Shown piece after piece: positions 853-52,608 of a stretch of DNA of 53,624 bases. The notes beneath the pieces are model-generated. The model was not told where the DNA came from. It ran no database searches and saw only the letters and a program-made list of their open reading frames with translations. Origin of the DNA: a virus. Where the stretch lies: the IMG/VR virus record IMGVR_UViG_3300048597_000653, positions 1 through 53,624 of that record; one strand, given 5' to 3'. A program made the position numbers and the translations under genes. The stretch's first letter is position 1; each line of letters starts with the position of its first letter.

Positions 853-2206
853 CGCTATACTCAGAATAGATGTTGTCACGAAGCTCGCGCGCCCTGCTGG
901 AGATTTCCTCTGGGTCAAGATCCGCCACGGCTAGGCCGCCAGCGATGGCACACCATAGGGTATCACGAAACCGAGCAATTCCACCGCTCCCCAGGTATCC
1001 CAATTCCTTGAATTGGGCTTTATCGATGAACTCACCCTCTTCCAAGAAGTCGGCTTTCTTCAGTGATCGTTTCAACCACGAAGCTAGCTGCTCTTGGGCA
1101 TCGTCACTAAGTAGTTCCGTTCCCTTCTTCTTCAAGTAGGAAATGCACGCCGGAATCAGGGTAATGAATGACACCATGACTCGGCCTTGATATACGACGT
1201 TGTGAGGAGAGAGCTTTTCGCCTTCCATCAACTCTTCTTTTCGCCCGGAAGCGGTCAGCCAAGCGTCTAAGCACAGAGCTAAGAACGACGCCTGATCGTC
1301 CAAGGATGTGATGTCGTTTTTGTAGAGTGCATCAATGACATCCTCGATTGCCGAGTTCAGCGTCGCGAGCGTCACGACATCACTTACACCGTACTTGATT
1401 CCCGGAATTTGAATCATGCCCACCAACGGTCCCACTTCAAGCATGAGCTTGCGCCCAAGGTCTTGCGAGCGTTCCTTCTTCGCAAGTCCGCTCCCTTCAC
1501 GGGCAGTCGGAAATAAGTCAGCGACGAGTGAACGATCTACCTTCTTCTGATAGAAGTTCACGTCAATAAAAATCTGCGCTTGGCGCTTCGGCGTGTCGCC
1601 GGCTTTGTCTAAATCTAGAAAGATCTCGGCGGGTATCTGCCAGACTAAACTTGGTTCATCCCGACGAGCCAGCATAACGGCGAAATATGCCCCATTGATT
1701 CGGTGCTGGCCGTCGATGACGGAGAAATTGAGATTCTTGTCACCTTCATTGAATCTCAGATTTGCTGTGCCATCTTGATTCTTGTCCAAGCTCGCCCCGT
1801 TGAGGTGAAGCAGGACATTTGAAAATACCGGATAAGAACTACGAACGAACCCGACAACTCGCGGAACGCGGGGCGGCCAGACACGGCCTTTCTCGTTCTT
1901 TCTAACTTCGTAGATTTCCGCAAAGCAATTCATTAGCTGCGTCGGGGCATCAACGATCTCCTGTTGCAGCAGGTAAGCCGCAATCTGAGCGACTCGCTTC
2001 CACTCCAAGGAACGCTGAATGGCTTTAACTTTGCGCGCATTGCGATGGGGAGCGTGCGGCGTCCCTGGCCACCACTCCATTAGCTTCTCAACGTTCAATG
2101 CGGCCAAGCAGTGAGTCGCAGATTGTAGCTCCGCGGGCACGAAGGGGTTCGTCGGGACAATCACCGAGATCGTTTGGACGTTGTGCTGGACTGCCATACC
2201 TGTCAC
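842..2206 (-). CDS. DGQHR-domain protein (DndB-like)
   Basis: A 454-residue protein with the diagnostic DGQHR motif at residues 165-169 inside FSVIDGQHRINGAYFA. The same fold is found in DndB, the regulator of DNA phosphorothioation systems, and in many orphan proteins of mobile islands. No dndA, C, D or E gene is visible, so a role in sulphur modification cannot be claimed. The GTG at 2206 is the longest start; an ATG at 2197 is an alternative and neither has a clear ribosome-binding site. Its end overlaps the HEPN-like gene by 11 bases, so the two probably form an operon and act together. Confidence 0.75.
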   Translation of the reverse strand: MTGMAVQHNVQTISVIVPTNPFVPAELQSATHCLAALNVEKLMEWWPGTPHAPHRNARKVKAIQRSLEWKRVAQIAAYLLQQEIVDAPTQLMNCFAEIYEVRKNEKGRVWPPRVPRVVGFVRSSYPVFSNVLLHLNGASLDKNQDGTANLRFNEGDKNLNFSVIDGQHRINGAYFAVMLARRDEPSLVWQIPAEIFLDLDKAGDTPKRQAQIFIDVNFYQKKVDRSLVADLFPTAREGSGLAKKERSQDLGRKLMLEVGPLVGMIQIPGIKYGVSDVVTLATLNSAIEDVIDALYKNDITSLDDQASFLALCLDAWLTASGRKEELMEGEKLSPHNVVYQGRVMVSFITLIPACISYLKKKGTELLSDDAQEQLASWLKRSLKKADFLEEGEFIDKAQFKELGYLGSGGIARFRDTLWCAIAGGLAVADLDPEEISSRARELRDNIYSEYSDAD

Positions 2207-22055: not shown

Positions 22056-23546
22056 ATGAAGCGATTCGTCGCCTTGGCCCGAGTCAGCAGCCGGGAACAA
22101 GAACGGGAAGGGTTTTCGCTCGACGTCCAAGAAGAGGCTTTGCGACGATACGCCACCCACGCCGGTGGCGAAATTGTCGAATTCTTCCGCATCGCTGAGA
22201 CGGCCAGCAAGAGCGATGAGCGCCGCACCTTCAAGTCGATGGTGGCGTATGCCAAACGCCACTGCCTGGAAATCGACGCGCTACTCTTCTACAAGATCGA
22301 TCGGGCGGCTCGAAATCTCTACGATTACGTCGAACTTGAACGGCTGGAATCGGAATACAATGTTCCGTTCATCTCGGTCTCGCAACCGACGGAGAACAAT
22401 CCGGCCGGCCGGATGATGCGCCGCACGCTGGCCAACATGGCCAGCTTCTATACGGAACAACAATCCGTGGACGTGCGGGAGGGCCTGGCCCGCCGCGTGC
22501 AAGAAGGGTGGTTTGTAGGGCACGCCCCCTACGGATATCGCAATGTGCGGCGAAACGGACGTAGCGTCGTCGAAATTGATTCCGTCCCCGCCGAAAATGT
22601 TCGCCGGTTCTTTCACCTCTATGCCTACGAAAACCTGACGCTGGATGGCGTTGTGGAAAAGATGGCGGAGGAGGGAAGGTGCTATCGAACGTCGTATCCC
22701 CGGTTTCTACGGGGCTCCTTGCATGCCATGCTGCGCGATCGGGCCTACATCGGAGAAATCGAATTCCGCGGCCAATGGTATCCGGGTAAGCAGGAACCGC
22801 TCATCGATCGAGGGACCTGGGACCGCGTGCAAGCATTGCTCGGGGGCCATGTCTATCAGGCCCACGAAATGACGTATGCCGGCGAATTGATGACCTGCGG
22901 TCATTGTGGCCATCCGATTACCGGCGAACGCAAAACTCGCCAAACCAAGCGAGGTCAGCGGAGCTACGTCTATTACCGCTGTGCGCGCTACAGCCAGGGA
23001 GATCACCCGCGCATCCGCGTCACGGAAGCGGAGCTCGATCTACAAATGCTGGCGTTATTCAAGCGGATGCGAATCGAGGACGACGGCGTCCGGGAATGGT
23101 TTCGCACGGTGCTCAACTCCCAGACCTTCGATGCCCAGCGAGAGTCACTGTCTCAGCACCATGAACTGACTCGGCAAGAAACCATGCTGATCGGTCAACA
23201 AGACCGGCTACTCAATCTTCGCCTGGCGGATCAAATCGACGACGATACCTTCGCCGCGAAGCAAACCGAAATCCGGGACCGGTTGGCTCGAATCCGGTTG
23301 CAACTGGATGTGCTGGACCGTTCGCATGACGAAACGGCCGAATTGGCACTGAAAGCGTTTGAACTTTCGCAAACCCTTGTCGAGAAGTGGCTTAACGCAG
23401 ACTATGCGACGAAACGCCGAATCCTTGAAATTGTCTGTTTGAACTGTTGCCTCAACGGCGCAACTCTTTGCCCGACAATAAGAAAGCCCTTCGACGTTTT
23501 GGCCGAAGGGCTCATTTCGAAAGATAGTCGGGGCGACAGGATTTGA
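22056..23546 (+). CDS. Large serine recombinase/integrase
   Basis: A 496-residue serine site-specific recombinase. The N-terminal resolvase domain has ARVSSREQ with S11 as the likely nucleophile, and FYKIDRAARN. The recombinase domain follows (GHAPYGYRNVRRNG, LHAMLRDRAYIGEIEFRG). Next are a zinc ribbon (CGHCGHPITG, with YYRCARY) and a helical C-terminus. CGGAG precedes the ATG at 22056. The stop codon lies inside a tRNA-Pro-like 3' fragment, so the gene ends within what is probably its own attachment site. It would integrate and excise the element. Confidence 0.92.
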   Translation: MKRFVALARVSSREQEREGFSLDVQEEALRRYATHAGGEIVEFFRIAETASKSDERRTFKSMVAYAKRHCLEIDALLFYKIDRAARNLYDYVELERLESEYNVPFISVSQPTENNPAGRMMRRTLANMASFYTEQQSVDVREGLARRVQEGWFVGHAPYGYRNVRRNGRSVVEIDSVPAENVRRFFHLYAYENLTLDGVVEKMAEEGRCYRTSYPRFLRGSLHAMLRDRAYIGEIEFRGQWYPGKQEPLIDRGTWDRVQALLGGHVYQAHEMTYAGELMTCGHCGHPITGERKTRQTKRGQRSYVYYRCARYSQGDHPRIRVTEAELDLQMLALFKRMRIEDDGVREWFRTVLNSQTFDAQRESLSQHHELTRQETMLIGQQDRLLNLRLADQIDDDTFAAKQTEIRDRLARIRLQLDVLDRSHDETAELALKAFELSQTLVEKWLNADYATKRRILEIVCLNCCLNGATLCPTIRKPFDVLAEGLISKDSRGDRI

Positions 23547-35929: not shown

Positions 35930-36454
35930 ATGGACGATTTGACAGGAAAGCTGTTTGCAGCAGTTTGTGCGGTGATTGCTACAAAAGCAGTCGATGCAAT
36001 ACTAAAGCGACGTGAGAAGCCAAGAATAGTTTGCGAATCACGATATAGCGGATTCCCTGTGCCAAAGGTAGGAAGTAGCTTTGGTCCAGAGGTCGTAGAT
36101 GCGTTTGGGAAAATCTTTTTTAGGCTTCAATTCTTCGGTGGCAGCCCGATAAAGAATGTCCGAATTCGGCTCGACTGCGGTCGCAACGAGCTAGTAGGTT
36201 GGTGCTGGTTTGTTGGTCAGTTGCTGGATTGCCAACGTCTCCAAGATCGAATGCAGCACGAGAACTCCGGTCAATGCGTTTGGGCTTATATCAATCCCGG
36301 TGACGTACTCGATCTTGAAGTTGAAGTTAGAAAGGTCACTGACCCTTCAGAAATTCGCCTTGAAATTGACGCAGAAGGTCTGTTGGTTCATCACAAACGA
36401 ACTCACATTCAATGCGATGTCCAACCTAGATCGGGAACTCGGCGCGGCGCTTGA
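35930..36454 (+). CDS. Hypothetical protein, 174 aa, end of rightward array
   Basis: The N-terminus has a hydrophobic helix (KLFAAVCAVIATKAVDAIL) then RRREKP-type basic residues, suggesting a membrane anchor. The remaining domain is beta-rich (PGDVLDLEVEVRKVTD, SEIRLEIDAEGLLVHHK). AT-richer than its neighbours. Its 3' end overlaps the leftward array by 29 bases. Confidence 0.6.
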   Translation: MDDLTGKLFAAVCAVIATKAVDAILKRREKPRIVCESRYSGFPVPKVGSSFGPEVVDAFGKIFFRLQFFGGSPIKNVRIRLDCGRNELVGWCWFVGQLLDCQRLQDRMQHENSGQCVWAYINPGDVLDLEVEVRKVTDPSEIRLEIDAEGLLVHHKRTHIQCDVQPRSGTRRGA

Positions 36455-36839
36455 CGACGCCGCCAACCTTTTGTGCGTGCAACTGGGCGACTTCCGGTGT
36501 TTCGTATCGCTCGGCGAATTCGTAGTTGAGGTGAATTCCTCTACCGCGAGCCATGAATCCCTTGGGCGTTTGTACCACGAAGCCCTCGCCGGTGTGCGAT
36601 CGGTCCATCCATATAACCGAATCGCGAACCCAGTAGCCTTTAGTGCGGTCGGCGATTTGCGATACCACCTGCCAGAGACTCATACAGTTGAGGATTGGGC
36701 CAAGACGACTGTCACTCGCAATGAATTGCACACCCTCGCGTGGCGAAACTCCGGCCAACACGGTGCCGACTCTGAAGCCGTCCACTAAGACATCGGTTTT
36801 ACGATCGAGAAGTTCAACCGTTGTTATTTTCGGCGGCAT
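36426..36839 (-). CDS. Hypothetical protein, 137 aa, end of leftward array
   Basis: Starts MPPKITTVELLDRKTDVLVD and is the last gene of the leftward array. No recognised domain; a compact mixed fold is suggested by KGYWVRDSVIWMDRSHTGEG. Overlaps the preceding gene by 26 bases and the convergent rightward gene by 29. Confidence 0.6.
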   Translation of the reverse strand: MPPKITTVELLDRKTDVLVDGFRVGTVLAGVSPREGVQFIASDSRLGPILNCMSLWQVVSQIADRTKGYWVRDSVIWMDRSHTGEGFVVQTPKGFMARGRGIHLNYEFAERYETPEVAQLHAQKVGGVVKRRAEFPI

Positions 36840-37245
36840 TCAGCCCTCCTAATGCGTTGCGCTTCCATCGTGGCCAACTGGCTACGACACGGCTAGACCG
36901 TTTCAGATGTTCAGTGAATCGATGATTCTCTCCGAACCATGTGAAGTGTCCCTCGGGTAGCTCCTCGATCGGCTTCATCGCGACGGCGCCCTCGGGGTAG
37001 GGCAGGGCGGTCACTTGGGACAACTCACTAACGTGGCAAGCCAGTTGCTTGACTGGCTCGCCGATTGCATCGGTCCAAGTCACGAGCCGGAAGGGATTCC
37101 GCGCTTGAGGCCTGCCCCAGTCAATGGACCAGTGTCGCTCACGCTTGGCCAAAGCGATCAGTGTGCGGATCGCTTCCGCATGAATCTTGTAGGCCATGAG
37201 ATTGGCCACGTTCTCGCTGATGCGGATTGCGTCGTCAATTTCCAT
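36814..37245 (-). CDS. Hypothetical protein, 143 aa
   Basis: MEIDDAIRISENVANLMAYK begins at a TAATG junction with the 40-residue membrane protein. Helical N-terminus, then a Trp-rich part (RHWSIDWGRPQARNPFRL). No recognised family. Confidence 0.6.
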   Translation of the reverse strand: MEIDDAIRISENVANLMAYKIHAEAIRTLIALAKRERHWSIDWGRPQARNPFRLVTWTDAIGEPVKQLACHVSELSQVTALPYPEGAVAMKPIEELPEGHFTWFGENHRFTEHLKRSSRVVASWPRWKRNALGGLNAAENNNG

Positions 37246-37367
37246 TAGCGGTTTATGTTCCCAGTTGAACGCTTGGCGAGTCGATAACCCAGGCCTATAC
37301 CAGCCAGGAATGATCCTTGAATGGCCAGGACGATGATTAGTGCGTCGAACGAAGATATTTGAGTCAT
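37245..37367 (-). CDS. Small single-pass membrane protein, 40 aa
   Basis: The ATG at 37367 has AAGGAGAAAC upstream inside the repeated junction element. Nearly the whole protein is one hydrophobic helix (SFDALIIVLAIQGSFLAGIG) with a basic end (RLAKRSTG). The longer frame to 37466 overlaps the upstream gene and is rejected. Probably an inner-membrane microprotein. Confidence 0.6.
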   Translation of the reverse strand: MTQISSFDALIIVLAIQGSFLAGIGLGYRLAKRSTGNINR

Positions 37368-37399
37368 GTTTCTCCTTAGCCGTTCTTGATCCCGGTTAG
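37365..37399 (-). repeat. Repeated junction element, copy 1
   Basis: Minus strand: CTAACCGGGATCAAGAACGG, then CTAAGGAGAAAC and ATG. Here the first half is coding (LTGIKNG-stop of the 67-residue protein). One of five copies sharing CTAACCG, AACG-CTAAGG and the start codon. Confidence 0.7.
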
Positions 37400-37579
37400 C
37401 GTGTTCTGGCACCGATGGCAGAGACCGATTTGCTTTTCTACATTGGTCATTAGAGGATTGTTGCACGGCACAACCCGCAATTCATCCAGACCAACTGTTT
37501 CGCAATCAATGAACACAACATCGTCCACCACTTGTTGATGCACTTTGATGTCTAGGCGCTTGTTCGTGCAATGTCCCAT
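37376..37579 (-). CDS. Zinc-ribbon-like small protein, 67 aa
   Basis: ATG at 37579 overlaps the preceding stop (TAATG); a TTG at 37639 would be inside the upstream gene. It contains FIDCETVGLDELRVVPCNNP and CHRCQN, a pattern suiting a zinc knuckle related to HNH-adjacent or ribbon proteins, though no HNH motif is present. Confidence 0.6.
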   Translation of the reverse strand: MGHCTNKRLDIKVHQQVVDDVVFIDCETVGLDELRVVPCNNPLMTNVEKQIGLCHRCQNTLTGIKNG

Positions 37580-38184
37580 TACTTTCCAACCTTGCTCGTG
37601 GTTGCTCTGTATCGGTCGAGCCCTTCCTCGCCGAAGCAACGATGGTCGCGGAGATATTGTAGTGGCTCAGATGCGGTGCCAGCTTCCCAGGCTTTGCGAA
37701 GCCGCTGTTTCCACATCCGGCCGTTGGCCTGGGCAAACTTGTTGAGGTGGTATTCCTCTTCCCATTTGAGCGACGTGCGAGTCCGCTCACGCTCTTCAGC
37801 CAGTCGCTTCTGTCGTGCGGCCTCTCGCCGCGCTTCACGCTTCTGATGGTCGCCGTAAGATTCCAGCGTGAGCTTGTGTGGCTTCAAAGCTTCGCGGATG
37901 TCCTCGACCTCGCCCTCGTGCAAGTAGATGACCTGCACCGGCAGCCCGTCCTTGGTTGTGGCGTGAATCAGTTGGTACGGAACGATGTCCTCGGGCTTGG
38001 ACAACTCCTGAACGATGCAGGTTAGTTCCTGCTGGCCAGGGGCGATGCCACGAACCTCTTCGATGATGTCTCGCAGTTGGCTGCTCAGCCACACGTCGCC
38101 GTCGCCATCAGGCTCGCCGGTTCGGCCGTACTCGATCGCGCTTTTCACCAGATCGAAGATGGATTCGAGCAGTTCATCGTTCAT
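37579..38184 (-). CDS. Hypothetical coiled-coil protein, 201 aa
   Basis: Helical N-terminus (LLESIFDLVKSAIEYG), a mixed middle (GLPVQVIYLHEGEVEDIREA), then a long charged helix (KREARREAARQKRLAEERER) and a basic end. Start within junction element copy 2. No recognised family. Confidence 0.65.
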   Translation of the reverse strand: MNDELLESIFDLVKSAIEYGRTGEPDGDGDVWLSSQLRDIIEEVRGIAPGQQELTCIVQELSKPEDIVPYQLIHATTKDGLPVQVIYLHEGEVEDIREALKPHKLTLESYGDHQKREARREAARQKRLAEERERTRTSLKWEEEYHLNKFAQANGRMWKQRLRKAWEAGTASEPLQYLRDHRCFGEEGLDRYRATTSKVGK

Positions 38185-38218
38185 CGTTTGCCCTTTAGCG
38201 GTTTCTTGTCTCGGTTAA
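38182..38218 (-). repeat. Repeated junction element, copy 2
   Basis: Minus strand: TTAACCGAGACAAGAAACCG, then CTAAAGGGCAAACG and ATG of the 201-residue gene. Non-coding here, except that TTAACC provides a stop in one frame. Confidence 0.65.
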
Positions 38219-38225
38219 GGTTGCC

Positions 38226-38254
38226 CGCCAGGTTGGGAGCGACCCAACCTGGCG
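38226..38254. promoter_or_regulatory. Strong 12-bp hairpin in a gap of the leftward array
   Basis: CGCCAGGTTGGG, loop AGCGA, CCCAACCTGGCG: perfect stem. No U-run follows on the minus transcript, so it is unlikely to be a simple terminator. It lies just upstream of junction element copy 2 and could protect or attenuate the downstream message. Confidence 0.6.
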
Positions 38255-38333
38255 AGCCCGCATTTGTCACACTTAGGCTCCGCAGGAATCTCCCGCGGGC
38301 AAATCTTTCAATTGAGGCGCCCGACTGTGGCCG

Positions 38334-38447
38334 CTAAGCGAACCCCGTGGGGAACGGCCGTTTGGCCAGGCTAGTTGGCTTTGCTTGCGTCGGCCGGGGC
38401 GCTTGCGACTCCCGCAGGCATAAGGGTTGGATGTATGGACTGGTCAT
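38334..38447 (-). CDS. Possible microprotein, 37 aa
   Basis: ATG at 38447 overlaps the preceding stop (ATGA), the array's usual linkage, and gives MTSPYIQPLCLRESQAPRPT and a Pro-rich basic remainder. Composition is unlike a folded protein. The rest of the gap (38185-38333) shows no supported gene, only an orphan KCDKCG zinc-knuckle-like stretch that may be a gene remnant. Confidence 0.3.
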   Translation of the reverse strand: MTSPYIQPLCLRESQAPRPTQAKPTSLAKRPFPTGFA

Positions 38448-39052
38448 TGGGCCTCGACCGCGCGGAGTGCTTTGTGAAACTCGGGCACCAAGTCAACCAC
38501 GTCGGCCGCATCGGTTGCTTCGCAGGCTCTGCGGACAACTTCGATCAAGGATGGGACGGCGTCCAGATTGAGTTTGGCCGTTTCTTGTCCCGGTTGGCAC
38601 CGATTTTCTTCGATGACCTGCTTTGCGATCTCACGCGCTTTGTCGCACTGTTCGCTTCGGAACTCGTCTTCCTTCTCCTGGTCGCTCAATTCGTCGCGGA
38701 ATTCCTGGTACGCCTGGTTGATCCGGCCGATCAGATCGCACCATGTAACGCCTACAGCGTTGCCGTAGGTGTAGGCAGCCTGGGTGCCAATGGCCTTCTC
38801 CGGCTCTTGGCCTTGCCACAGTCCGTTGTCGGTTTCGATGTAATTGGACAGTTCATCGAGCAACTCGGCCGCATCCAGCAGATCGTAGAGCCTGTCAACG
38901 TGGTTTTCGTGGTGATAACTGTCACCGTCATCGTAGTCATTGTTGAAATCTTCGGACGCCTCGCCGTCGTCCACCAGTTGATCGACAATCTGATCCAAGA
39001 AGTGTTCCGCCATGTCGCAAGCGTCATTCATCGCATCATCGGAGTAGCTCAT
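38444..39052 (-). CDS. Acidic hypothetical protein, 202 aa
   Basis: Very acidic N-terminal half (DGEASEDFNNDYDDGDSYHH), then a helical region (GRINQAYQEFRDELSDQEKE). Strong negative charge could suggest DNA mimicry, as in some anti-restriction proteins; this is speculation from composition. Start within junction element copy 3. Confidence 0.65.
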   Translation of the reverse strand: MSYSDDAMNDACDMAEHFLDQIVDQLVDDGEASEDFNNDYDDGDSYHHENHVDRLYDLLDAAELLDELSNYIETDNGLWQGQEPEKAIGTQAAYTYGNAVGVTWCDLIGRINQAYQEFRDELSDQEKEDEFRSEQCDKAREIAKQVIEENRCQPGQETAKLNLDAVPSLIEVVRRACEATDAADVVDLVPEFHKALRAVEAQ

Positions 39053-39088
39053 GGTGTTTGCCCCTTAGTCGTTTCTCGGTCCGGTTAG
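39050..39088 (-). repeat. Repeated junction element, copy 3
   Basis: Minus strand: CTAACCGGACCGAGAAACGA, then CTAAGGGGCAAACACC and ATG. Here the TAA of CTAACC is the stop codon of the upstream gene, so the rest is untranslated. The closest copy to number 5. Confidence 0.7.
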
Positions 39089-39486
39089 AGTCGGTTGGTC
39101 ATCACAGATTCGCGGAGCGCTTCCATCGCTTCCTCGACGGATTCCCACGCGATGGAATTCATGGATGAGAAGCTTTCGACCTCGCCCAGCATGTTCGGAT
39201 CGTCGATTTGGGCGAGAATGGCGTCGATGACATCACAGGCGATATGCCGATCCTCGCTGGTTCGATTTTCGTAGTGATCGCGGACAGTCTGGGCGACGTT
39301 CTCATCCACAACCCAAGGCTGCAACCGCACCTCGTCGTAACAATGATGAAGCCAGTAGCGGGAATCGCCCGTCCGGTTGCTGCGATCGAGCACATACACG
39401 CTCACGATCCGCTCGATTTGCGGCCGATCGGCTTCTCTGATGTCAAACTCGTGCGTGGTGTCGAGTGTCACCGCGAAGGCGTCCAT
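39085..39486 (-). CDS. Hypothetical protein, 133 aa
   Basis: The ATG at 39486 (MDAFAVTLDTTHEFDIREAD) sits after junction element copy 4; the longer frame to 39735 runs over another gene. Contains IVSVYVLDRSNRTGDSRYWL and a helical acidic end. No recognised family. Confidence 0.6.
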   Translation of the reverse strand: MDAFAVTLDTTHEFDIREADRPQIERIVSVYVLDRSNRTGDSRYWLHHCYDEVRLQPWVVDENVAQTVRDHYENRTSEDRHIACDVIDAILAQIDDPNMLGEVESFSSMNSIAWESVEEAMEALRESVMTNRL

Positions 39487-39521
39487 AGTTACTGCCCTTA
39501 GTCGTTTGTTGGTTCGGTTAG
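39484..39521 (-). repeat. Repeated junction element, copy 4
   Basis: Minus strand: CTAACCGAACCAACAAACGA, then CTAAGGGCAGTAACT and ATG. The TAA of CTAACC is the stop of the 83-residue gene. Confidence 0.65.
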
Positions 39522-39769
39522 GCTGCGGGTTGCCGATAGTTCCACAATCGCTGGCCTGGAATTCCGCCGGGGAACTCGCCCATTTCAACGTCACCGCCGA
39601 AGTAGAGCGCTTCCACTCGCCACATGTGGCGGTTGTACGCTTCCCAGCTTGGAGTCGATGAGGTGAGCATGTTGTGATAGGTCCAGCGTGCTTTCGCCTT
39701 GGCCAGCCCGATCGCATTGGTGATACGATCCTCAAGACGGCAAAGGCGGGATAACGTCCCTTCGTTCAT
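39518..39769 (-). CDS. Hypothetical protein, 83 aa
   Basis: MNEGTLSRLCRLEDRITNAI begins after CTGGAG. Helical N-terminus, aromatic middle (SWEAYNRHMWRVEALYFGGD). No recognised family. Follows the basic 36-residue microprotein by five bases. Confidence 0.6.
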   Translation of the reverse strand: MNEGTLSRLCRLEDRITNAIGLAKAKARWTYHNMLTSSTPSWEAYNRHMWRVEALYFGGDVEMGEFPGGIPGQRLWNYRQPAA

Positions 39770-39774
39770 CGTTG

Positions 39775-39885
39775 CTAACTCCAGAGTCGTTTCGCGAAGC
39801 GCTTAGCGCGGTGGGATGCATACCATCGTCGCCGCGCTTCACCCTTGCTGCCATTTCTTCTCGGGCGCTTGCTTCCGTCGATCAT
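39775..39885 (-). CDS. Strongly basic microprotein, 36 aa
   Basis: Found by translating the gap: ATG at 39885, four bases after the previous stop with AAGG in between. The product is extremely basic (MIDGSKRPRRNGSKGEARRR, then HRAKRFAKRLW). It could bind nucleic acid or membranes. Not covered by standard length cut-offs. Confidence 0.5.
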   Translation of the reverse strand: MIDGSKRPRRNGSKGEARRRWYASHRAKRFAKRLWS

Positions 39886-39889
39886 GGCC

Positions 39890-40330
39890 TTAGCCCTCAG
39901 CGCTTACGGTTAAGGCTTCCTGAGCCAGTTCAAACCACTCCAATCCCTCAAAGAAGATCGGCGCCCGATGGCTCGTCTTGATCCGCAGAATCTCGCATGC
40001 GTGGTCAAATTGTTTGCCGTAGTCGTCTGCGATGCTGACACCGTGGCCCATGCATCCCAACATGAGGGACGATAGCGCTCGGGCCTCATCGTCTGGGCCT
40101 AGATCCATGTGATGAAACACAAGGCCCAAATCGTGGCCCCATGCGTGCTCAATGCGGCCGATATACCGCATGACGATTGGCAACTGGACATCATCCGGCA
40201 GACGCGGGACGTGCTCGCAAATGTCTTCCTGCGCGGGAAAGCGTCCACCTTGCTCTTCAAATTCGCTCGCGTACACGCTCGCGTAGCAGGCATGCGCGGC
40301 TTCAAGTAAAGCTTGTTTTGACGGTAGCAT
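39890..40330 (-). CDS. Hypothetical protein, 146 aa
   Basis: Helical, His-rich middle (MRYIGRIEHAWGHDLGLVFH) and acidic surface. GGGGCAACC precedes the ATG at 40330. No recognised family. Confidence 0.6.
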   Translation of the reverse strand: MLPSKQALLEAAHACYASVYASEFEEQGGRFPAQEDICEHVPRLPDDVQLPIVMRYIGRIEHAWGHDLGLVFHHMDLGPDDEARALSSLMLGCMGHGVSIADDYGKQFDHACEILRIKTSHRAPIFFEGLEWFELAQEALTVSAEG

Positions 40331-40339
40331 GGTTGCCCC

Positions 40340-40525
40340 TTAGCTTGCGATCATCTGGTTGATTTGTGCCAAGTATTCTGGCTTGTAGATGTCCACTCGA
40401 TTGGTTGCGTCGTGGAGTATCTGCTTTGCGACGTGGGGAGGTATCTTTACGTCAAACTGCATACGCTTGCCGGTTGGTGTCGCGAGGATGTGAACCCAGC
40501 CGGCAATTGTTTGAATAGATGCCAT
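40340..40525 (-). CDS. Small hypothetical protein, 61 aa
   Basis: MASIQTIAGWVHILATPTGK followed by a helical end (PEYLAQINQMIAS). Start within junction element copy 5 with AAGGGG. No recognised family. Confidence 0.55.
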   Translation of the reverse strand: MASIQTIAGWVHILATPTGKRMQFDVKIPPHVAKQILHDATNRVDIYKPEYLAQINQMIAS

Positions 40526-40559
40526 GATTTGCCCCTTAGTCGTTATGCGGTCCGGTTAG
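40523..40559 (-). repeat. Repeated junction element, copy 5
   Basis: Minus strand: CTAACCGGACCGCATAACGA, then CTAAGGGGCAAATC and ATG. In this copy the first half is coding (LTGPHND-stop), in a different frame from copies 3 and 4, which shows that the conservation is at the nucleotide level. Confidence 0.7.
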
Positions 40560-40793
40560 AGTGGCGACCTTGCGCGGCTTGCTGAATTGCTTCAGGAGGT
40601 AGCGATATTCCTTGTATGTGGTGGGAATCTGTTGACTGACTGGCACACTGGCGAATTCTGGCACGAGCGCTTGCGTCCCCTCATAGCCCTCGTCGATGGC
40701 TCGCACGATGGTTGCCTTCTCATTGAGGATCAGGAATAGACGCCGCGGGTTGCCGTTTCTGTCGTTTCCTGCGTTTAGGTGGATTGCGATCAT
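40536..40793 (-). CDS. Small hypothetical protein, 85 aa
   Basis: MIAIHLNAGNDRNGNPRRLF, then ATIVRAIDEGYEGTQAL. Four-base ATGA overlap with the preceding gene. Its last seven codons form half of junction element copy 5. No recognised family. Confidence 0.6.
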   Translation of the reverse strand: MIAIHLNAGNDRNGNPRRLFLILNEKATIVRAIDEGYEGTQALVPEFASVPVSQQIPTTYKEYRYLLKQFSKPRKVATLTGPHND

Positions 40794-41062
40794 TGGCCCT
40801 GCTCCCCATAGGCGGATTCGATTTGCTTGTCACAATCTGAGCAATGCAGGCTGTCGTCTTCCCAGTTGACATCAGCGCCGACTATGTGCCATTGCTTGTC
40901 GCTTGCGTCCTTGTAATCGACGTTAGATTGACACGCGCAGTCCGCACATAACGTCCCGCCATCCGCGGTTACGTAATACAGCGGATAGCCGCCCGGCCAT
41001 GCATACGCTTGTAGCTTGCCGTTTTCCATTCGGTAGGTTTCTAGATCGAATGGTTTGCACAT
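40790..41062 (-). CDS. Zinc-ribbon protein, 90 aa
   Basis: Start at 41062 (MCKPFDLETYRMENGKLQAY). Two CxxC-type knuckles, CADCAC and HCSDCDK, about 35 residues apart, suggest a treble-clef or ribbon. The pattern GYPLYYVTADGGTLC is one I have seen in small phage-associated proteins. Function unknown. Confidence 0.65.
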   Translation of the reverse strand: MCKPFDLETYRMENGKLQAYAWPGGYPLYYVTADGGTLCADCACQSNVDYKDASDKQWHIVGADVNWEDDSLHCSDCDKQIESAYGEQGQ

Positions 41063-41066
41063 TGCC

Positions 41067-41330
41067 CTAGCTCCTGATTGCCGGATGATTGGGATGCTGT
41101 AGCCGCAAATGATCGGACACGATCGCATTGACTTCGTGCGCGTCGATGCCGGGTTGCTTGCCACCTATTCGGCAATCGACCAGGTCGCCCCGTGCGTCGA
41201 ATTCCGCGAATAGTCGCTTGCCTGCTATCTGCGAGCATGGCCAGCGGTTGCCTGGACGGTTGGCCCATTGGTAGGTTTCATCAGCCGAGAGCCAAAGCGC
41301 TGTCCCTGATTCGTTGACAATTACTCTCAT
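41067..41330 (-). CDS. Hypothetical protein, 87 aa
   Basis: MRVIVNESGTALWLSADETY, then RLFAEFDARGDLVDCRIGGK. Mixed alpha-beta pattern, no cysteine motif. Follows the 116-residue gene by three bases. No recognised family. Confidence 0.6.
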   Translation of the reverse strand: MRVIVNESGTALWLSADETYQWANRPGNRWPCSQIAGKRLFAEFDARGDLVDCRIGGKQPGIDAHEVNAIVSDHLRLQHPNHPAIRS

Positions 41331-41333
41331 GGC

Positions 41334-41684
41334 TCACCTCACACGAATTGAGACGTAATAGTAGGTGTCGCAATCCTCACCGATGAATTCTCCATCCTCA
41401 TCGGAGTAATCATCGGGGTTTACGTCGATGAGGTGCGTTTCAACGTCTGGCGAGGTGGGGAACTCTTTCCAGCCTTCCTGCTCTTTAATCCGCGCTTCCA
41501 AGTCTTCAGAATCCCAGCCTTGCTGGGCCAGACTTTCTAGCGCGTCGTCGATTGCCTCCGCGGGATTGTTGCCGTTGCCTGTTGCAACGTCGGTATACTG
41601 AGTGTGGGATGTCCCGCAGCCCTGGAAGTAGCTTGCGCCTTCTATACCGTGATCGATCAGTTCAAAAGCTTCTGCGCGTTTCAT
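41334..41684 (-). CDS. Acidic hypothetical protein, 116 aa
   Basis: Helical N-terminus and acidic C-terminal half (IDVNPDDYSDEDGEFIGEDC). Start at 41684 preceded by AAGGGGCAAAC. No recognised family. Confidence 0.6.
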   Translation of the reverse strand: MKRAEAFELIDHGIEGASYFQGCGTSHTQYTDVATGNGNNPAEAIDDALESLAQQGWDSEDLEARIKEQEGWKEFPTSPDVETHLIDVNPDDYSDEDGEFIGEDCDTYYYVSIRVR

Positions 41685-41693
41685 GTTTGCCCC

Positions 41694-41870
41694 TTAGCGG
41701 ATTGGGTAACTGCCAACATAAAGCAGAGAATTGCGGAAGGCTTTTGCTTGCCTTGCGCCGTATCTGCTGCGGATACTTTGCAACGTGGCGGCCAGCATCG
41801 GGCGAGTGGGCGGATGCAAGACGTAGTGGCAATGCACGCGCATCATAGGCGCGAAGTAATAACCGCTCAT
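41694..41870 (-). CDS. Basic hypothetical protein, 58 aa
   Basis: Found by translating the gap. ATG at 41870 overlaps the stop of the preceding gene (ATGA) with CGGGGCAAC upstream. The product (MSGYYFAPMMRVHCHYVLHP, then RSRYGARQAKAFRNSLLYVG) is basic. No recognised family. Confidence 0.6.
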   Translation of the reverse strand: MSGYYFAPMMRVHCHYVLHPPTRPMLAATLQSIRSRYGARQAKAFRNSLLYVGSYPIR

Positions 41871-42484
41871 TTGTTGCCCCGATTCTGTTGGTTGAGCTTG
41901 AATCGCAGGCTAAGGCGATGGTTTGCCAATCGTTCGGCGCGAAGATCAGGCTTTCCCGCAACCGTATAACCGTCTGCCTCAAGCTGGGCTGCCACGTTCC
42001 AAGCGCAATCTCGGGCGCAGTCATCAGCGGCAAAATCGTAGTCATCAATTCCACCAAGGCTGTCGATATATCCGCGGAATTCGCAGACCACGCGATACCA
42101 TTCCCAGCCTTGATCGTGCCATTTCACAAGCTGGGCCAACCGGCGCGCCTTGTCTTGTGCTGCAAGCTCGCGTGCTACTTGCTTGCTCGCGCCGTTGTCG
42201 CGATGGTACTGATACGTTTCTTGAATTCCGGCAGACTGTGGCTCATCCAAGACGATAACGCCACCCCTACGGCCAGCGCCGTAGGAATAACCTTGGCCCT
42301 CTTTCTGCCCTGGATGGTCGGCCGATTCTATCTCGTGATCGTAGCCGCACTGGTTGTCCCAAGGCTTGTCACCGAATTCGTCATTCTCCATGCGACAAGC
42401 TTCTAAGATGTCTGCAAAATCGACGATTGCAGATTCTGCGCTGATTGTTAGCATCGTGTCGTCAATGCGCATTTTCTTGCTCAT
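41867..42484 (-). CDS. Hypothetical protein, 205 aa
   Basis: The ATG at 42484 (MSKKMRIDDTMLTISAESAI) overlaps the preceding stop by ATGA; the frame extending to 42655 is rejected. Helical and charged, with GIDDYDFAADDCARDCAWNV near the C-terminus. No recognised family. Confidence 0.6.
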   Translation of the reverse strand: MSKKMRIDDTMLTISAESAIVDFADILEACRMENDEFGDKPWDNQCGYDHEIESADHPGQKEGQGYSYGAGRRGGVIVLDEPQSAGIQETYQYHRDNGASKQVARELAAQDKARRLAQLVKWHDQGWEWYRVVCEFRGYIDSLGGIDDYDFAADDCARDCAWNVAAQLEADGYTVAGKPDLRAERLANHRLSLRFKLNQQNRGNK

Positions 42485-42855
42485 GGTTGCGCTCGCGTGA
42501 ACTGGTTGACTGCTGCTAGTACGTCGTCTGCGGTTGCTTGTCGCAGGCTTGCATAGGGCACAGTGCAAACTGTGCCATCCACTCGGCGCACATAGACTTG
42601 ATCGAAAGGCTTGCTTTCGGCTGTGCCTGCCATGATTCCATGCGGGGTATCCCATGCGACGTGGTTTGCGAGCGCGTCAACATGGCGAGCGCCTCGCAAT
42701 GTCACCTCACCTAGGCGTTTTTCACCATTGAAGATTCGCCAACATGATGAATCAGTCGAGACGTATCGTTGCGCCACACTCACAGCATCGGTAAACAGTC
42801 CGTCTACTTGCTGCGATTCGTTCGGGTTGTTCGCGTTGACGATTTGCCACAACAT
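42481..42855 (-). CDS. Hypothetical protein, 124 aa
   Basis: MLWQIVNANNPNESQQVDGL, then SSCWRIFNGEKRLGEVTLRG. A beta-rich small domain. AAAAGG precedes the start. No recognised family. Confidence 0.6.
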   Translation of the reverse strand: MLWQIVNANNPNESQQVDGLFTDAVSVAQRYVSTDSSCWRIFNGEKRLGEVTLRGARHVDALANHVAWDTPHGIMAGTAESKPFDQVYVRRVDGTVCTVPYASLRQATADDVLAAVNQFTRAQP

Positions 42856-42858
42856 GGA

Positions 42859-43020
42859 TCAGCCTTTTACGCCACATGCGCGGTAAAACGTGGTAAAACT
42901 GAAGCGCGGATTCTGGCTAGCGCAGACTTCTGCAATCAGGTTGGCCACTCGCTCTCGCTCCTGTTCGTTGCTGATGCTTTTGATTGCTTCGGCCAGTGCT
43001 TTGAAGTGTTTTCTGCTCAT
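42859..43020 (-). CDS. Conserved small helical protein, 53 aa
   Basis: MSRKHFKALAEAIKSISNEQ, then NPRFSFTTFYRACGV. This is a pattern I know from short proteins near replication or transfer genes of phages and plasmids (MSRKHFxALAxAL...NPRFxxxxFxxACG). The function is unknown. GAGGGGCACC precedes the ATG at 43020. Confidence 0.7.
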   Translation of the reverse strand: MSRKHFKALAEAIKSISNEQERERVANLIAEVCASQNPRFSFTTFYRACGVKG

Positions 43021-43030
43021 GGTGCCCCTC

Positions 43031-43117
43031 TTAGTAAGGTTGCCGCGGGGCAAGCACAGTCTGCCAGACGCTCGCAATCAGGATGAATCCGGCAAAGGCT
43101 GCTAGTTCGATGACCAT
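43031..43117 (-). CDS. Membrane microprotein, 28 aa, first gene of leftward array
   Basis: Found by translating the leader: ATG at 43117, stop at 43031, GGGGCAAG upstream. The product is essentially one hydrophobic helix (MVIELAAFAGFILIASVWQT). It starts about 20 bases after the -10 hexamer. The 12-base inverted repeat GGGGCAAGCACA (43047-43058) / TGTGCTTGCCCC (43118-43129) brackets it, so the ribosome-binding site can be sequestered by its own coding region. Confidence 0.55.
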   Translation of the reverse strand: MVIELAAFAGFILIASVWQTVLAPRQPY

Positions 43118-43139
43118 TGTGCTTGCCCCTTGGTTGTGC

Positions 43140-43170
43140 ATTATAAGATTGCATCACCATTGACCTAAGG
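43140..43170 (-). promoter_or_regulatory. Promoter of leftward array with shared box, copy d
   Basis: On the minus strand a perfect TATAAT (43145-43140) lies 23 bases before the first start codon. Directly upstream is a variant box: on the plus strand CATCACCATTGAC at 43152-43164, followed by CTAAGG. The box thus occupies the spacer/-35 zone. Confidence 0.65.
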
Positions 43171-43938
43171 CAAACAGAATTTAGCGGATCCGTAGTATTT
43201 ATTCCCGAATCCCACGATTGGTTGCACAGAATGTGGGAAATACCGCGCACGATGGGCGCCGGCCGACCGCGAGCGTGTCGCGTCTTGGTGCAGAGCGGGC
43301 GCAGAATGCTGCCTGATCGACGCGGTACGATGCTTTGCGTGTCGCGTCAGGCAGTGATTATCGACGCGACGAATGGCGAGAATTTGACGAGCCTAAGATT
43401 TAGAATCTGTCGCGTGCAAAATCTTGAGCAAGGCCGAGCCAACCGCGTCAATTACCGGATTGAGTAATGTCGCGTCGAAAAGAGTCATTTTTGTAAGGTG
43501 CAGAGCGGGTTGACGTTGCGTTGAAAAAGTTACTGAGTTACCCTGGTTACCGTTTGTTACTTCTCCTATGCATATTCTATTTACACTCACTCTCTACTTA
43601 CTTACTTACTAAATAACTATCTATATAGAAGAACAATAATAGAGTAATTGAGTCATTCTGTACGCGCAACGTGCATTGAATGCACGGCTTGCTGCATGTT
43701 ACCTTTCTGCAAATTGCGATACTACCGCGTCAAATTAGGTAATTGTCGCGTCAGACGTGGTTACAAGCTGGGAGGCAAGAACTGCCGAAACGGCAGACAT
43801 GACGCGGCAAGAAACCATATTTGGCAGTCAACCGCGTCAGACCACGACGCGACCCGCTCACCTGGTCGATGCTGTGCGTTGATCGTCGCGAATCAACGCA
43901 AATCGTGATGCACAAACAAGATGCAATCGTGCTCGTGT

Positions 43939-43962
43939 TATATTGCACCACCTTAGACGTCC
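43939..43962. promoter_or_regulatory. Shared box, copy e
   Basis: CACCACCTTAGAC at 43946-43958 preceded by TTG, the most diverged copy of the box. On the minus strand TATAAC lies next to it, in the same relative place as TATAAT beside copy d. It lies within the repeat-rich tract. Confidence 0.4.
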
Positions 43963-44149
43963 GTCGATGGTGACGCAACGTGATGGCAGACGCGGGGTTG
44001 TATCGTCTGGGCAGGTAACTTGCCGCGGGTGGAACGGGTGGGGTCAAATCCGCGGGTTGTGACCGGGATTGGCATGGCACGCCATTCGCAGCCCTTTCGA
44101 CGCTTGGGGCGCCGAAGCAAGAAGCAGTGACGCGTCATGCGGGCTTCTC

Positions 44150-44176
44150 GGCCGATCGCGGGGCTCGCGATCGGCC
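44150..44176. repeat. Perfect 11-bp inverted repeat
   Basis: GGCCGATCGCG, loop GGGCT, CGCGATCGGCC. There is no U-run on either side. It lies 13 bases after the TGACGCGTCA palindrome at 44128-44137. Could be a protein-binding or cruciform site of the candidate origin. Confidence 0.7.
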
Positions 44177-44578
44177 AAGCTCGAACTCGCGGGGCTCGCC
44201 GCCGGCCGACGCAAAGCACATCGACGCGTCATCAAGGCATCTCGCGACTGGCAGCGACAACGTCCGAACACAATCGCGATCGCCGGAGGCTTCGGATTTG
44301 CCACCGCCTGCGCGATAGATAGGTGCCCATCGTCAAATCACACCGGCCCATGACATATCGCAACAGAAGCGAACTGTGAGCATTTCAGCCAGGGTCACGC
44401 GGCAGGAGGGTCAAATCCGCCGGCCACAGGAATTCAATCAACTGCTTAACGCGTCAGAGCAATTCCGGCGCCGGCCGGCGGAGAGAGGCATTGACGCGTC
44501 AGTCTCCTGCCTTGAGAAGAGGTAAACACAGAGCGAATTCAACGACCAGATTCTATGTCGTAGCGGTCCCCAGGCAGA

Positions 44579-47357
44579 CTACTCCGGCGGTGACGTGTCG
44601 GACTGTTTTCGGCGACGAGCTTTGGGTAGGCCCGCCGTTATCGGTGCAGTCATCGTATCGTAGAGCCTGAACAAGAACTCCATACGTTGTAAATCATTCG
44701 CAAAGGGTTGAGAGCGATAGCACTTATCGACCACTTTGTCGAGTTCCGCGTGAGCTTTGGAAAGGTTCCTTGGCATCGTCACCGGATCATACAAATCCGC
44801 CAAGGAACTATCAGGCCATGCTTGTCGGGCATCGAGCACAAGCTGCGCCTTTGCTTCGACTGTCTCTCGGGCTTTTTTCGTTGCCGTATCAGGCCACGGA
44901 AAGTTGTTGTAGACAAGTGTGCCTGAGTAGCGATAACGCGATTCCAGTCGTCCCGCAATTTGCCGTACCCAGGCCATGTGCATAGCAGAGGAGAGGATTC
45001 CAAAATGAAAGAGCGTTGCTTCTTCCACAACAAATACGAGATCGCTAACCAGCGTTTCCGGTGACATGAAGCCAATGGGAATGTACAGCCGTCGCTCGGA
45101 TGAGACCTTGGGAATCAACAAGAATTCGCGCGTTGGCATTTTCTCGACATGAAAGCGGGTGGGCGTCTTCGCGATTTTTTGTGTGGGAATACTCTTACTG
45201 GCTGCTCTGAACTTGCGGACGGCCTCCACTCGTTTGACAGCCTCAGGCATCGCCTTGAGTTCGTTGGGGGGGACAATCCCCGAGCCAGAGGCACCAACGC
45301 TTTTTGCCGTTGATGAACTCGTCCGATCCAACCCATTGTCGGAACCATTTTTTCGCCTTGGGCTCTTGCTTGAGGAACTGGTCCATCTCCTCTTCCAAGA
45401 ACAAATAATTGCCGTCGTCGATGGGCTTATTACCGATCGCGATTTTCGGCACGGCACAAACAGGCGTCTCTCTGTTGACAATGAGCGTATCGGGGCCTTC
45501 AACGAGGTAGGGGCTGATGTTCTTGGCGTCAATTACCGTTGGTGTGTTCGGATCAGATTCGTAGTCATAGAGTCGTTTTTTCCCAGCGACGTTTTCGCCG
45601 AAACCGATGATGACTACATGGACGTGAGCTTTGCCTCTCGCCTCGCTTTCCCAGGCAAAGGTGCGGTGCGCGAAGCGAATTTGCAGTCCGCGTTTAAGCA
45701 AGTCCGCCCAAAGCGTTCCAACTTGCTCGCCCTGGGTAATAGAGTTCGTGGAAACGAAGCCAACCGATATGTTGGTGCCGCGAATAAAACCCGCCGCCTG
45801 AAAGTACCATCCGGTCACATAGTCGAGCAGGCCCACATTCTTGACTGTCGAGGCAACAGTTTTCATGTCCGAACGTTGTGACTCCGACTGGTATTTCGAC
45901 CCAACGAATGGAGGGTTGCCCAAAACGTAGCTGCACTCTTCTGGGGCGACGATCGTCCGCCAATCGAGTCGGAGTGCGTTACCCTGAACGATCTTGGCAC
46001 TTTTTCGGAGCGGCAGCCGCACGAAATATTGGCCGAAAGCTTCCGAGACCCGGAGGTTCATTTGATGATCCATGAGCCACATCGCCACTTCGGCAATGCG
46101 AACCGGAAACTCGTTGATTTCAACGCCAATAAAGGCATCGACGTCCACCCTGGCCATGTGCGAGATATCCAGGGTCAACTGACGATCGCCCTCCTGTAGT
46201 TGCAGCAGGACATCGAGTTCAAGGAGTCGTAGCTCGCGGTAGGTGACAACCAAAAAGTTCCCACAGCCACAAGCCGGGTCAAAAAATCGGAGCTTTGCTA
46301 AGCGATCATGGAAGCGCCGTAGGTCAGGTTTGCTTTTCTTGATCCGCTCGAACTCGGCACGCAAATCGTCGAGGAAAAGAGAGCGTACAACCTTCATAAT
46401 GTCGCGTTCGCTCGTGTAGTGTGCTCCGACTTGACGCCGTTCGCGTGGCTCAATCACTGACTGAAAGAGTGAGCCGAAAATTGCTGGCGAGATACGGCTC
46501 CAATCAAAGCGGCAGCAACTCAGGAGAGCCTCGCGGGTTGATCGCGTGAACTCGACGAACTCAAGGTGTTCGGCAAACAAGTCACCATTGACGTAGGGGA
46601 GACTGGCTAAGAGTTCGTCGAGATTCCTCTGTCGGTGGTCCGTCGGTGTATTAAGGACGGAGAAAATGCGTGCCAGGTGTGCTCCTAAGTCGGAGCCGTC
46701 CGCGTTGGTTCGCTCTTCAACGAACTGGGTAAACGCGTTTCGGTCAAAGATTCCGTTGTCTTCGGCGAAGAGACAAAACAACACGCGAACGAGGAATCGT
46801 TCTAACTGGTGACCGGCGTAGCCGCCGTCTTCCAAGGCATCGTGCAGTTCGCCCATTTTCTCAACGGCCTTGACGTTGATCGGATCCTCAACATCAAGGC
46901 GGTGCTGCTTATAGCCTGGGATGAAGGCAAAGACATGGACGTGCTTGTGCAACTCCTTGAGCGAGCATTCAAACGATTTACGCTCATCCAAGTCGTGAAG
47001 AGCCAAGGAAGCAAAATCGGAAAGGACAACGTACCGAGGAATATCGTCGTCACGACCAGCATCTTTTAGGCCTCGGATGTACGCCATCGCCTGGCTTTGT
47101 GCGACGTCCAGCGGCTTGCCCAAACTCTTGTGTTCGACGAGTAATGTCCCAGGCCAGAAGAGGTCAATGAAGCCCCAGGCACCAGAAAGTTTCTTTACCG
47201 GCTCTTCAAAACTGGCGACGGTCCGCCGGCGCACACCAAAAACCGCGAAGAACTCATCCCAAAAGCTTTTGGCTTCAGCGTGCTCTCTGGTTTCCGCCGC
47301 CCACTCTTTGGAAAAAGCAATGGCGTTCTGACGAATCTCGTTCCAAGATATGGGCAC
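44579..47357 (-). pseudogene. MmeI-like type IIG restriction-modification gene, frameshifted at a C7 run
   Basis: The first 704 codons (GTG at 47357 to 45243) and a second frame (to 44579) together form one protein of about 925 residues, the usual size for this family. The N-terminal nuclease motif has D65 and E75-x-K77 (LLVEHK). The methyltransferase domain has HYTSERD, FDPACGCGNF (about 359-368) and NPPF (480-483). The second frame continues with PNELKAMPEAVKRVEAVRKF and the target-recognition and C-terminal parts. The break lies in a run of seven C (minus strand; plus strand G7 at 45266-45272); six would restore the frame. This may be a phase-variable switch, a recent mutation or a sequencing error. 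If intact it would both cut and methylate DNA. Confidence 0.85.
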
Positions 47358-51533: not shown

Positions 51534-51687
51534 GAAGGTTCCGGAAGGTGGTGACAAGGTGTTGGCAGCGGCAGGCGAACTCACGCAGGGAACTGGCCAA
51601 CGGGACGGCCGCCTGTGCGATGGTCGCCAGAACCGCCCGGCGAGCGGACTTGCGATGGCTACGCCGCAGGCGATGATCGCGGGACAT
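51526..51687 (-). CDS. Basic microprotein, 53 aa
   Basis: The ATG at 51687 has GGGAG upstream. Sequence MSRDHRLRRSHRKSARRAVL, then a weakly hydrophobic AVLATIAQAAVPLASSL. Overlaps the upstream membrane-protein gene by 29 bases. A longer frame to 51819 is a shadow. Confidence 0.45.
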   Translation of the reverse strand: MSRDHRLRRSHRKSARRAVLATIAQAAVPLASSLREFACRCQHLVTTFRNLHG

Positions 51688-52036
51688 GCGGTTCTCCCAA
51701 ATTCGTGTCACAGAACGCCAGAATGGATTCAGACGTCCTGCGATGCAGGTCGCGCGTCTTGATCTCCAACGACACCGTCGCGACATACTGCTCCAGCCGT
51801 TGCAGTCGAAAGCCGACAACGATCAAGATGAGCCAGAGACCAAACATCGTCCCGAGCACGCCGAGAGCGTAGGGTGTGAAATACTCAACCGGATCCCACA
51901 TTCGTCCAATCATCAGCGTGGCGACTGCTGCCAGCAGGCAACAGTAGTAGACTTTGTTCTTGAACTGCCGGTGCTTGGCCTCACGCAGGACCGAGTGCAA
52001 GCCCCAGTAGGTCAAGTAGCAGACGTCAACCATCAT
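51659..52036 (-). CDS. Membrane protein of duplicated module, copy 1, 125 aa
   Basis: MMVDVCYLTYWGLHSVLREA, then two transmembrane helices (VYYCCLLAAVATLMIG and GVLGTMFGLWLILIVVGFRL) and a soluble tail. The N-terminal pattern (VDV-(F/Y)LT-xGLH) and layout match the protein at 52213-52608. Start overlaps the stop of the preceding 52-residue gene. Confidence 0.7.
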   Translation of the reverse strand: MMVDVCYLTYWGLHSVLREAKHRQFKNKVYYCCLLAAVATLMIGRMWDPVEYFTPYALGVLGTMFGLWLILIVVGFRLQRLEQYVATVSLEIKTRDLHRRTSESILAFCDTNLGEPHVPRSSPAA

Positions 52037-52191
52037 TTGTAGCCTCGATATTTGCCGTAGGTGGGTGGTGATTCAGGGTTCTGTTTGGCGCGACGTCGCT
52101 CGATGCGAACTTTGAGTCGCTTGAGCCAGGACTTGACTGTACCACTGCCACTGCTGCCAGCTTGTTCGACGTCGGGCTTGGGAGGGCGCAT
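52033..52191 (-). CDS. Basic small protein of duplicated module, copy 1, 52 aa
   Basis: Found by translating the gap. MRPPKPDVEQAGSSGSGTVK, a basic helix (LKRLKVRIERRRAKQ) and the end PPTYGKYRGYK. Clearly paralogous to the 52605-52760 product (RVERRRAKQDP, TTPTYGKYRGY). ATGA-type overlap with the following membrane-protein gene. Confidence 0.7.
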   Translation of the reverse strand: MRPPKPDVEQAGSSGSGTVKSWLKRLKVRIERRRAKQNPESPPTYGKYRGYK

Positions 52192-52212
52192 GGTGTTTGA
52201 ACTCTTCGATCA

Positions 52213-52608
52213 TCAACTGGCGAGCTTCTCGTTGGATTCAGTGCAAAGCTGGTGAAAGGCGGTTGCGGCCGGGCTGAGTGCATACTTAGCCCGCTCGGCA
52301 GCCTGTTCGGCGGCCCGCCTTGTCCGCTCTTTCCTGATCGAACTGATGTAGCGATGGGCGACCAGTACGTCGTTTGCAAACCACACCAGCACCAGGGCGT
52401 AAAAGGCAGTGGCGAAAACAAAGTACAATGCCAAGTCGAATGAAAACGGCTGCGTCCCGTAGTGGTACGCCACGCCGAACACTGCTGCCAATGCGACCGC
52501 ACAGATGAGCATAAGAACCAGGAACGCCAGATCGGTTAAACGACTTCGTTCCGCTTGACGCTCCGCTGCGTGCAGGCCCAAGTCGGTCAGGAACACAACA
52601 TCAATCAC
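52213..52608 (-). CDS. Membrane protein of duplicated module, copy 2, 131 aa
   Basis: MIDVVFLTDLGLHAAERQAE, two helices (LAFLVLMLICAVALAAVFGV and YFVFATAFYALVLVWFANDV) and a helical tail. Same order and N-terminal pattern as the 51659-52036 product. Coupled to its preceding basic small protein by a four-base overlap. Confidence 0.7.
   Translation of the reverse strand: MIDVVFLTDLGLHAAERQAERSRLTDLAFLVLMLICAVALAAVFGVAYHYGTQPFSFDLALYFVFATAFYALVLVWFANDVLVAHRYISSIRKERTRRAAEQAAERAKYALSPAATAFHQLCTESNEKLAS

Follow-up and report, generated by a model that had tools for sequence, protein, structure and literature searches.

An uncultured tailed phage (IMG/VR record IMGVR_UViG_3300048597_000653, 117,624 bases, of which bases 1-53,624 constitute the window analyzed here) carries an element of ~35 bases, copies of which stand just ahead of the start codons in some ten small genes that are unrelated to one another. 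From sequence comparison, we lean by a small measure toward reading this element as a phage-private translation-initiation signal of the type represented by the start-associated sequences (SAS) and extended start-associated sequences (ESAS) of mycobacteriophages, one that would act on an array of small genes. The array runs leftward (36426..42855, minus strand), comprises ~18 genes and holds every copy of the element, all on the minus strand and none of them close to the genes for terminase, capsid or tail; a search of the remainder of the record for the element found no instance outside the array. The array proteins, for which family searches returned nothing informative, are dissimilar to one another, indicating that the genes are not paralogues; they probably represent accessory small genes, probably early ones.

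Five strong copies align without gaps as [C/T]TAACCG-N8-AAC[G/C][A/G]CTAA[G/A]G, followed by 6-10 nt to the ATG (short consensus CTAACCG-N8-AACGnCTAAGG), with the TAACCG of the left block invariant in all five and the two CTAA blocks always 20 bp apart. These are the junctions that an earlier note on this DNA had singled out, and the minus-strand positions, the sequences and the reading frames that it gave all prove correct. The copy at 40523..40559 (CTAACCGGACCGCATAACGACTAAGGGGCAAATC-ATG; 36.4 bits against a weight matrix built from the five) starts gene 40525-40340, and the gene upstream, 40793-40536, reads through the left half (LTGPHND*) to stop at the right-block TAA. The copy at 37365..37399 (34.0 bits), which starts a 40-residue gene (37367-37245), is organized in the same way, gene 37579-37376 ending there as LTGIKNG* at the right-block TAA. 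At 39484..39521 (38.9 bits; start of gene 39486-39085) and at 39050..39088 (39.6 bits; start of gene 39052-38444), it is the left-block TAA that terminates the upstream gene (39769-39518 in the first case), and the copy at 38182..38218 (33.2 bits), at the start of gene 38184-37579, is non-coding, being situated in a 225-nt gap. Since the stop codon of the upstream gene is, depending on the copy, the left TAA, the right TAA or neither, conservation operates at the nucleotide level, as the earlier note had argued; it spans several reading frames and unrelated proteins, and is limited to the junction. Directly upstream of the copy at 38218 lies an inverted repeat (38223-38257) with 15-nt arms (93%), a 5-nt loop and no T run.

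Inspection of the array revealed further copies that the earlier note had missed. Three degenerate extended copies occur at starts: 39888..39913 (13.5 bits) before the ATG at 39885 of a 36-residue gene, 39781..39806 (13.1 bits) before the ATG at 39769, and 37243..37268 (14.0 bits), which ends in CTAATG and so contains the start codon of gene 37245-36814. Gene starts were taken from a simple script and from lists of open reading frames, the weakest being provisional; the call of the 36-residue gene is backed by a homologue in a related record, G008. Two short forms, in which the left block is missing and merely ~12-16 bases are held in common, lie at 41682..41697 (CTAAGGGGCAAACATG; start of gene 41684-41334, its TAA being the stop of gene 41870-41694) and at 40328..40343 (CTAAGGGGCAACCATG; start of gene 40330-39890, its TAA being the stop of gene 40525-40340). 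One relic copy, 38572..38597 (23.1 bits), sits inside gene 39052-38444, whose predicted structure has a predicted local distance difference test (pLDDT) score of 42; both TAA triplets of the relic are changed to CAA, and it is read as QPGQETAK. This relic apart, all copies, whether strong or weak, end at start codons, on one strand of one array.

The matrix was used in a leave-one-out scan of the ~235,000 sites in the record. When held out, the copies ranked 2-5, each thus being among the top five sites, and the next four sites record-wide were the minus-strand array sites 38597, 37268, 39913 and 39806, the first intragenic and the others each at a start codon. Across 2.36 million positions of other DNA, leaving out contigs that had been fetched by the pattern itself, the best score was 15.9 bits, as compared to 33-40 bits for the strong copies; the 23.1-bit site at 38597 is therefore very probably a real copy. 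Taken singly, the three weak copies at starts, with 13-14 bits, fall within the range of noise, and their support comes from the position of every one at a start codon of the same array. We also counted similar window pairs among 17 array starts, either aligned on the start or moved to eight shifted positions. Windows ending at the start codon yielded 11 pairs scoring at least 11 and five scoring at least 14, against 0-1 at the shifted positions; the same test on the Cluster K phage Anaya, as a positive control, gave 34 start-aligned pairs against 0-6. Because the similarity is confined to starts and the array proteins are dissimilar, it is as a junction, and not within duplicated genes, that the sequence has been copied or retained, and tandem gene duplication is ruled out as the source of the similarity.

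These scans bear on the simplest alternative, namely that the copies are ordinary strong ribosome-binding sites whose upstream similarity arose by chance. A stop codon joined to a Shine-Dalgarno sequence, as in the right block, is frequent in compact operons, and scans with the pattern through viral and genome collections, which returned single, isolated sites only, found two unrelated contigs (L012 and L079) with one similar site each before an ATG. We treat these two look-alikes as products of chance or convergence, there being no second copy in either and no genes in common. The match of the left block in every strong copy, the ranks of the held-out copies and the lack of similar pairs in shifted windows nevertheless disfavor this alternative already, and we regard it as extremely doubtful.

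Relatives of the phage retain three genes of the array, termed here gene A (41867-42484), gene B (41334-41684) and gene C (39890-40330), in another order and with other junctions. The related record G017 has a homologous leftward array with counterparts of all three; the order is A-B-C in the present phage, A-C-B in G017, and B stands ahead of A in contigs L056, L059 and L061. Gene B is kept in ~18 distinct contigs with unrelated junctions, so that the element is phage-specific, not gene-specific. Between phages, the refuting condition that the earlier note had set, namely that genes persist while their junctions vary, is thus fulfilled for the tie between gene and junction, whereas the tie between phage and junction stands.

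Examination of these relatives shows that several bear start-linked repeats of their own. G017 has a private start repeat, ACAACGAACCACAACGCAACGGGAGACAAC, which occurs at gene B itself as well, and L072 has another, CCTTTTACCCCATAAAGGAAAAACCCC. In G020 (L068 3643-15799), an 18-bp palindrome, TGATTCC-N4-GGAATCA, is present in 12 exact copies and one with a single mismatch, mostly just 5' of the Shine-Dalgarno sequences of small genes, and L056 carries short private start-linked repeats. With the window-shift control, the start excess is very strong in G020 (36 versus 0-3 pairs), clear, if small, in L056, and weak or lacking in the others; in G000, G017 and G008, counts over the whole genome suffer from blurring by other repeats, and 13 loci chosen without regard to gene B have almost no start-associated repeats. 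Private start-associated repeats are recurrent in this group, not universal. An upstream repeat in L073 was set aside, as it reads as a conserved C-terminal peptide. Other repeats were seen in the same relatives. At starts 8845, 9240, 9412 and 9932 of L072, a leader, CCTTTTAaCCCATAAAGGAAAAACC, is repeated whose CCTTT can pair with the Shine-Dalgarno AAAGG, possibly forming a hairpin that hides the latter at several of these starts. G008 has a promoter-like repeat, CTTTGACGTAGTATTGAGTTG, before many small genes (for example at starts 43978, 76884 and 77679, minus strand), and the G017 array contains two long, similar intergenic regions (L053 6654-7549 and 11148-12045, minus strand) with an identical 21-nt core, CGCCCTAACTATGTGCTTAAC, that may form a hairpin.

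The comparison of copies within the present phage suggests that the two parts of the element have been treated differently: all eight spacer columns vary, as against four of the 18 flanking columns (Fisher p = 3e-4), while spacer length is constant. This contrast is suggestive only, because the copies are few and related by descent. It bears on a second proposal of the earlier note, that the element is a scar of cassette shuffling; in the form weighed here, it would be a short homology patch for swapping or inserting array genes that has no function beyond its ribosome-binding site. The differing gene orders among phages fit such a scar, any gene lying between two copies has the same sequence on both sides, and the relic within gene 39052-38444 resembles a fused former junction. 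There is also a precedent in gene 14 of the Cluster O phage Corndog, which has a 17-bp direct repeat on either side, at stop/start junctions (PMC4351075), although gain or loss of the gene between relatives is seen there and not here: neither an empty site with a single copy nor a gene gained or lost between two copies of the element was found. A neutral patch would moreover be expected to vary evenly, yet the blocks hold while the spacer drifts, and the bases common to the short forms are few for such a patch. A neutral linker accounts for the reordering and the relic but not for the contrast between blocks and spacer, and we consider it unlikely.

The leaders formed by the element are poor in T (9%, versus 21% upstream of 137 other genes) and weakly structured, with ensemble energies of -6 to -9 kcal/mol against a mean of -13 kcal/mol; 94% of the other starts in the record are more stably folded than the median element copy. 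This low structure stems from composition, since single folds of the copies are no better than those of shuffled sequences. The folding that the earlier note had recommended disclosed no hairpin or inverted repeat common to the copies, and their alignment has no consensus structure (~0 kcal/mol), so that an RNA hairpin or covariation is ruled out; Rfam families have no match in the window. The note's other proposal, an RNA-binding site controlling translation, may be right, and the position, U-poverty, low structure and fixed-length bipartite pattern of the element would all suit it.

Two readings place the action of the element on DNA instead. In one, each copy is a promoter for its own gene, as proposed for the ESAS of phage Adephagia, which were later interpreted as containing promoters on account of SigA-like hexamers within them (PMC11373665); repeats in the relatives G008 and L075 likewise look promoter-like. 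Scanning positions 36000-44600, however, returned 0 sigma-70-like sites, below the shuffle mean of 4.2, which speaks against a sigma-70 promoter in the array and sets the element apart from that of Adephagia; no copy has an A+T-rich -10 region, and two copies lie partly within coding sequence. Promoters at each copy thus appear highly improbable. In the other, the copies are operator or stoperator-like sites at which a phage regulator would act on transcription through the array. The element is asymmetric, has a single orientation, lies between genes and keeps a fixed distance between its CTAA blocks, features that recall the asymmetric, oriented, intergenic and multicopy stoperators that are bound by repressor in Cluster A phages (PMC9283540), and in G020 palindromic sites occupy the equivalent place. 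Stoperators are, however, 13-bp repressor sites that are tied neither to ribosome-binding sites nor to a set spacing from the start codon (PMC9283540), whereas here the right block is itself a ribosome-binding site and the copies keep an almost constant distance to the start codon; none of the copies lies at a recognizable promoter, and the short forms lack the left block. An operator would therefore seem quite unlikely, and both operator and promoter are less likely than a neutral recombination linker or a translation-initiation element.

The closest known parallels are the SAS and ESAS of Cluster K mycobacteriophages, described by Pope et al., 2011 (PMC3203893), whose function still awaits experiment (PMC12699233; PMC3203893). 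These are likewise asymmetric repeats, of one orientation, at the ribosome-binding-site position of many unrelated non-structural genes; they too have a short and an extended form, sometimes enclose the upstream stop codon, and show an extended consensus that varies by subcluster (PMC3203893). As with SAS, conservation here exceeds what pairing with 16S rRNA needs, the invariant TAACCG being the case in point; by position and by established knowledge of initiation, the left block sits outside the region of Shine-Dalgarno pairing. In the five strong copies, 6-10 nt separate the end of the right block (CTAAGG) from the start codon; the weaker and short copies are close to it, the CTAATG variant overlaps it, and the genes concerned are non-structural and of unrelated families. 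The 13-bp SAS consensus, GGGATAGGAGCCC, is absent, in contrast, and where ESAS have imperfect 17-bp inverted repeats upstream of SAS, the present phage has one unstructured block and an 8-nt spacer; Cluster K genes with the repeat are >50 bp apart, those here are mostly tightly packed, and the phage groups are unrelated. With the consensus and the inverted repeats both lacking, we do not file the element as a member of SAS/ESAS, but from these likenesses it looks as if it works in the same manner. Among Microbacterium phages, a SAS/ESAS-like motif of Cluster EF, whose extended part is a block that is asymmetric, weakly conserved and located 5' of the ribosome-binding site, is closest in design, and Clusters EC, EG and EI are independent groups each with a private start-linked repeat (PMC7302621). 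Their sequences and hosts differ from those here, and the inverted repeats of EG resemble G020 more than the present phage (PMC7302621).

In the translation-initiation reading that we prefer, the right block (CTAAGGGG) is a Shine-Dalgarno sequence overlapping a stop codon, and the left block, together with the fixed spacer and AACG, would form an unstructured, U-poor leader, probably read on the mRNA. Its reader could be the ribosome, in standby or in re-initiation after the upstream stop, or a phage-encoded factor. Copies would have spread among junctions by duplication or recombination, after which selection would have kept both blocks while the spacer drifted; that the element goes with the phage rather than with the gene fits such a spread of junctions within a phage, followed by selection for start function. 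Several observations weigh on the other side. A stop codon and a Shine-Dalgarno sequence alone account for the right block; the intragenic relic is a copy away from any start; five strong copies that are kin by descent give the block/spacer test little power; and the same element, sought in other phages through viral and genome collections and terminase relatives, along the lines of the search in related replicons that the earlier note had proposed, was found in no other record.

The array belongs to a record that is otherwise a tailed-phage genome, with terminase, portal, P22-like coat, tape measure, exonuclease and DNA polymerase genes at 62-104 kb, and from ~56 kb onward it is for the most part syntenic with two IMG/VR records, G008 (136 kb) and G017 (82 kb). 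At its left end, the same record encodes a TrwC relaxase (3614-6232), which is nearest to a Planctomycetota plasmid protein (45% identity) among its best matches, a coupling-protein-like ATPase (19195-20685) and a large serine recombinase (22056-23546). Neither the relaxase nor the coupling protein is matched in the syntenic G008 and G017, and a search of the record with PF03135 (VirB4-type) found no match; the region may be part of a phage-plasmid, a co-integrate or a neighboring mobile element. Elsewhere in the window, an MmeI-like type IIL restriction-modification gene (44579-47357, minus strand) is interrupted by a single frameshift, located at a C7 run in its target-recognition domain; this run may be a slippage tract that allows phase variation, or the frameshift may be an error in sequencing the homopolymer. 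The protein at 842-2206 (minus strand) has a weak match to a DndB-type domain, associated with DNA sulphur modification. Near-identical sequences (ACCCTGAA...TACGG.AAATATCGAGGCTA) upstream of two genes at 51659-52608 (minus strand) are probably coding, a repeat at the protein level. In the tail region (record 71887-73663; L004/L005), two adjacent genes are 84% identical over 167 residues.

Start-associated repeats have posed a puzzle since 2011, and the accounts of them that we found concern actinobacteriophages. The same phenomenon now appears in uncultured phages with small-gene arrays, whose relaxase relatives point to Planctomycetota, and the comparison adds a feature, in that identical gene families stand under different private repeats in different phages. 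An unlikely but broader possibility is that phages of this group each use a private start code, in which a phage-encoded factor reads its own repeat and jointly controls the translation of accessory genes, with captured genes joining by acquiring the local junction. If so, gene and code would evolve apart, and the same gene would stand under a different code in each phage. The comparison of shared gene families makes it directly testable whether a repeat goes with the gene, with the phage or with a factor acting in trans, and such repeats flag clusters of small accessory genes.

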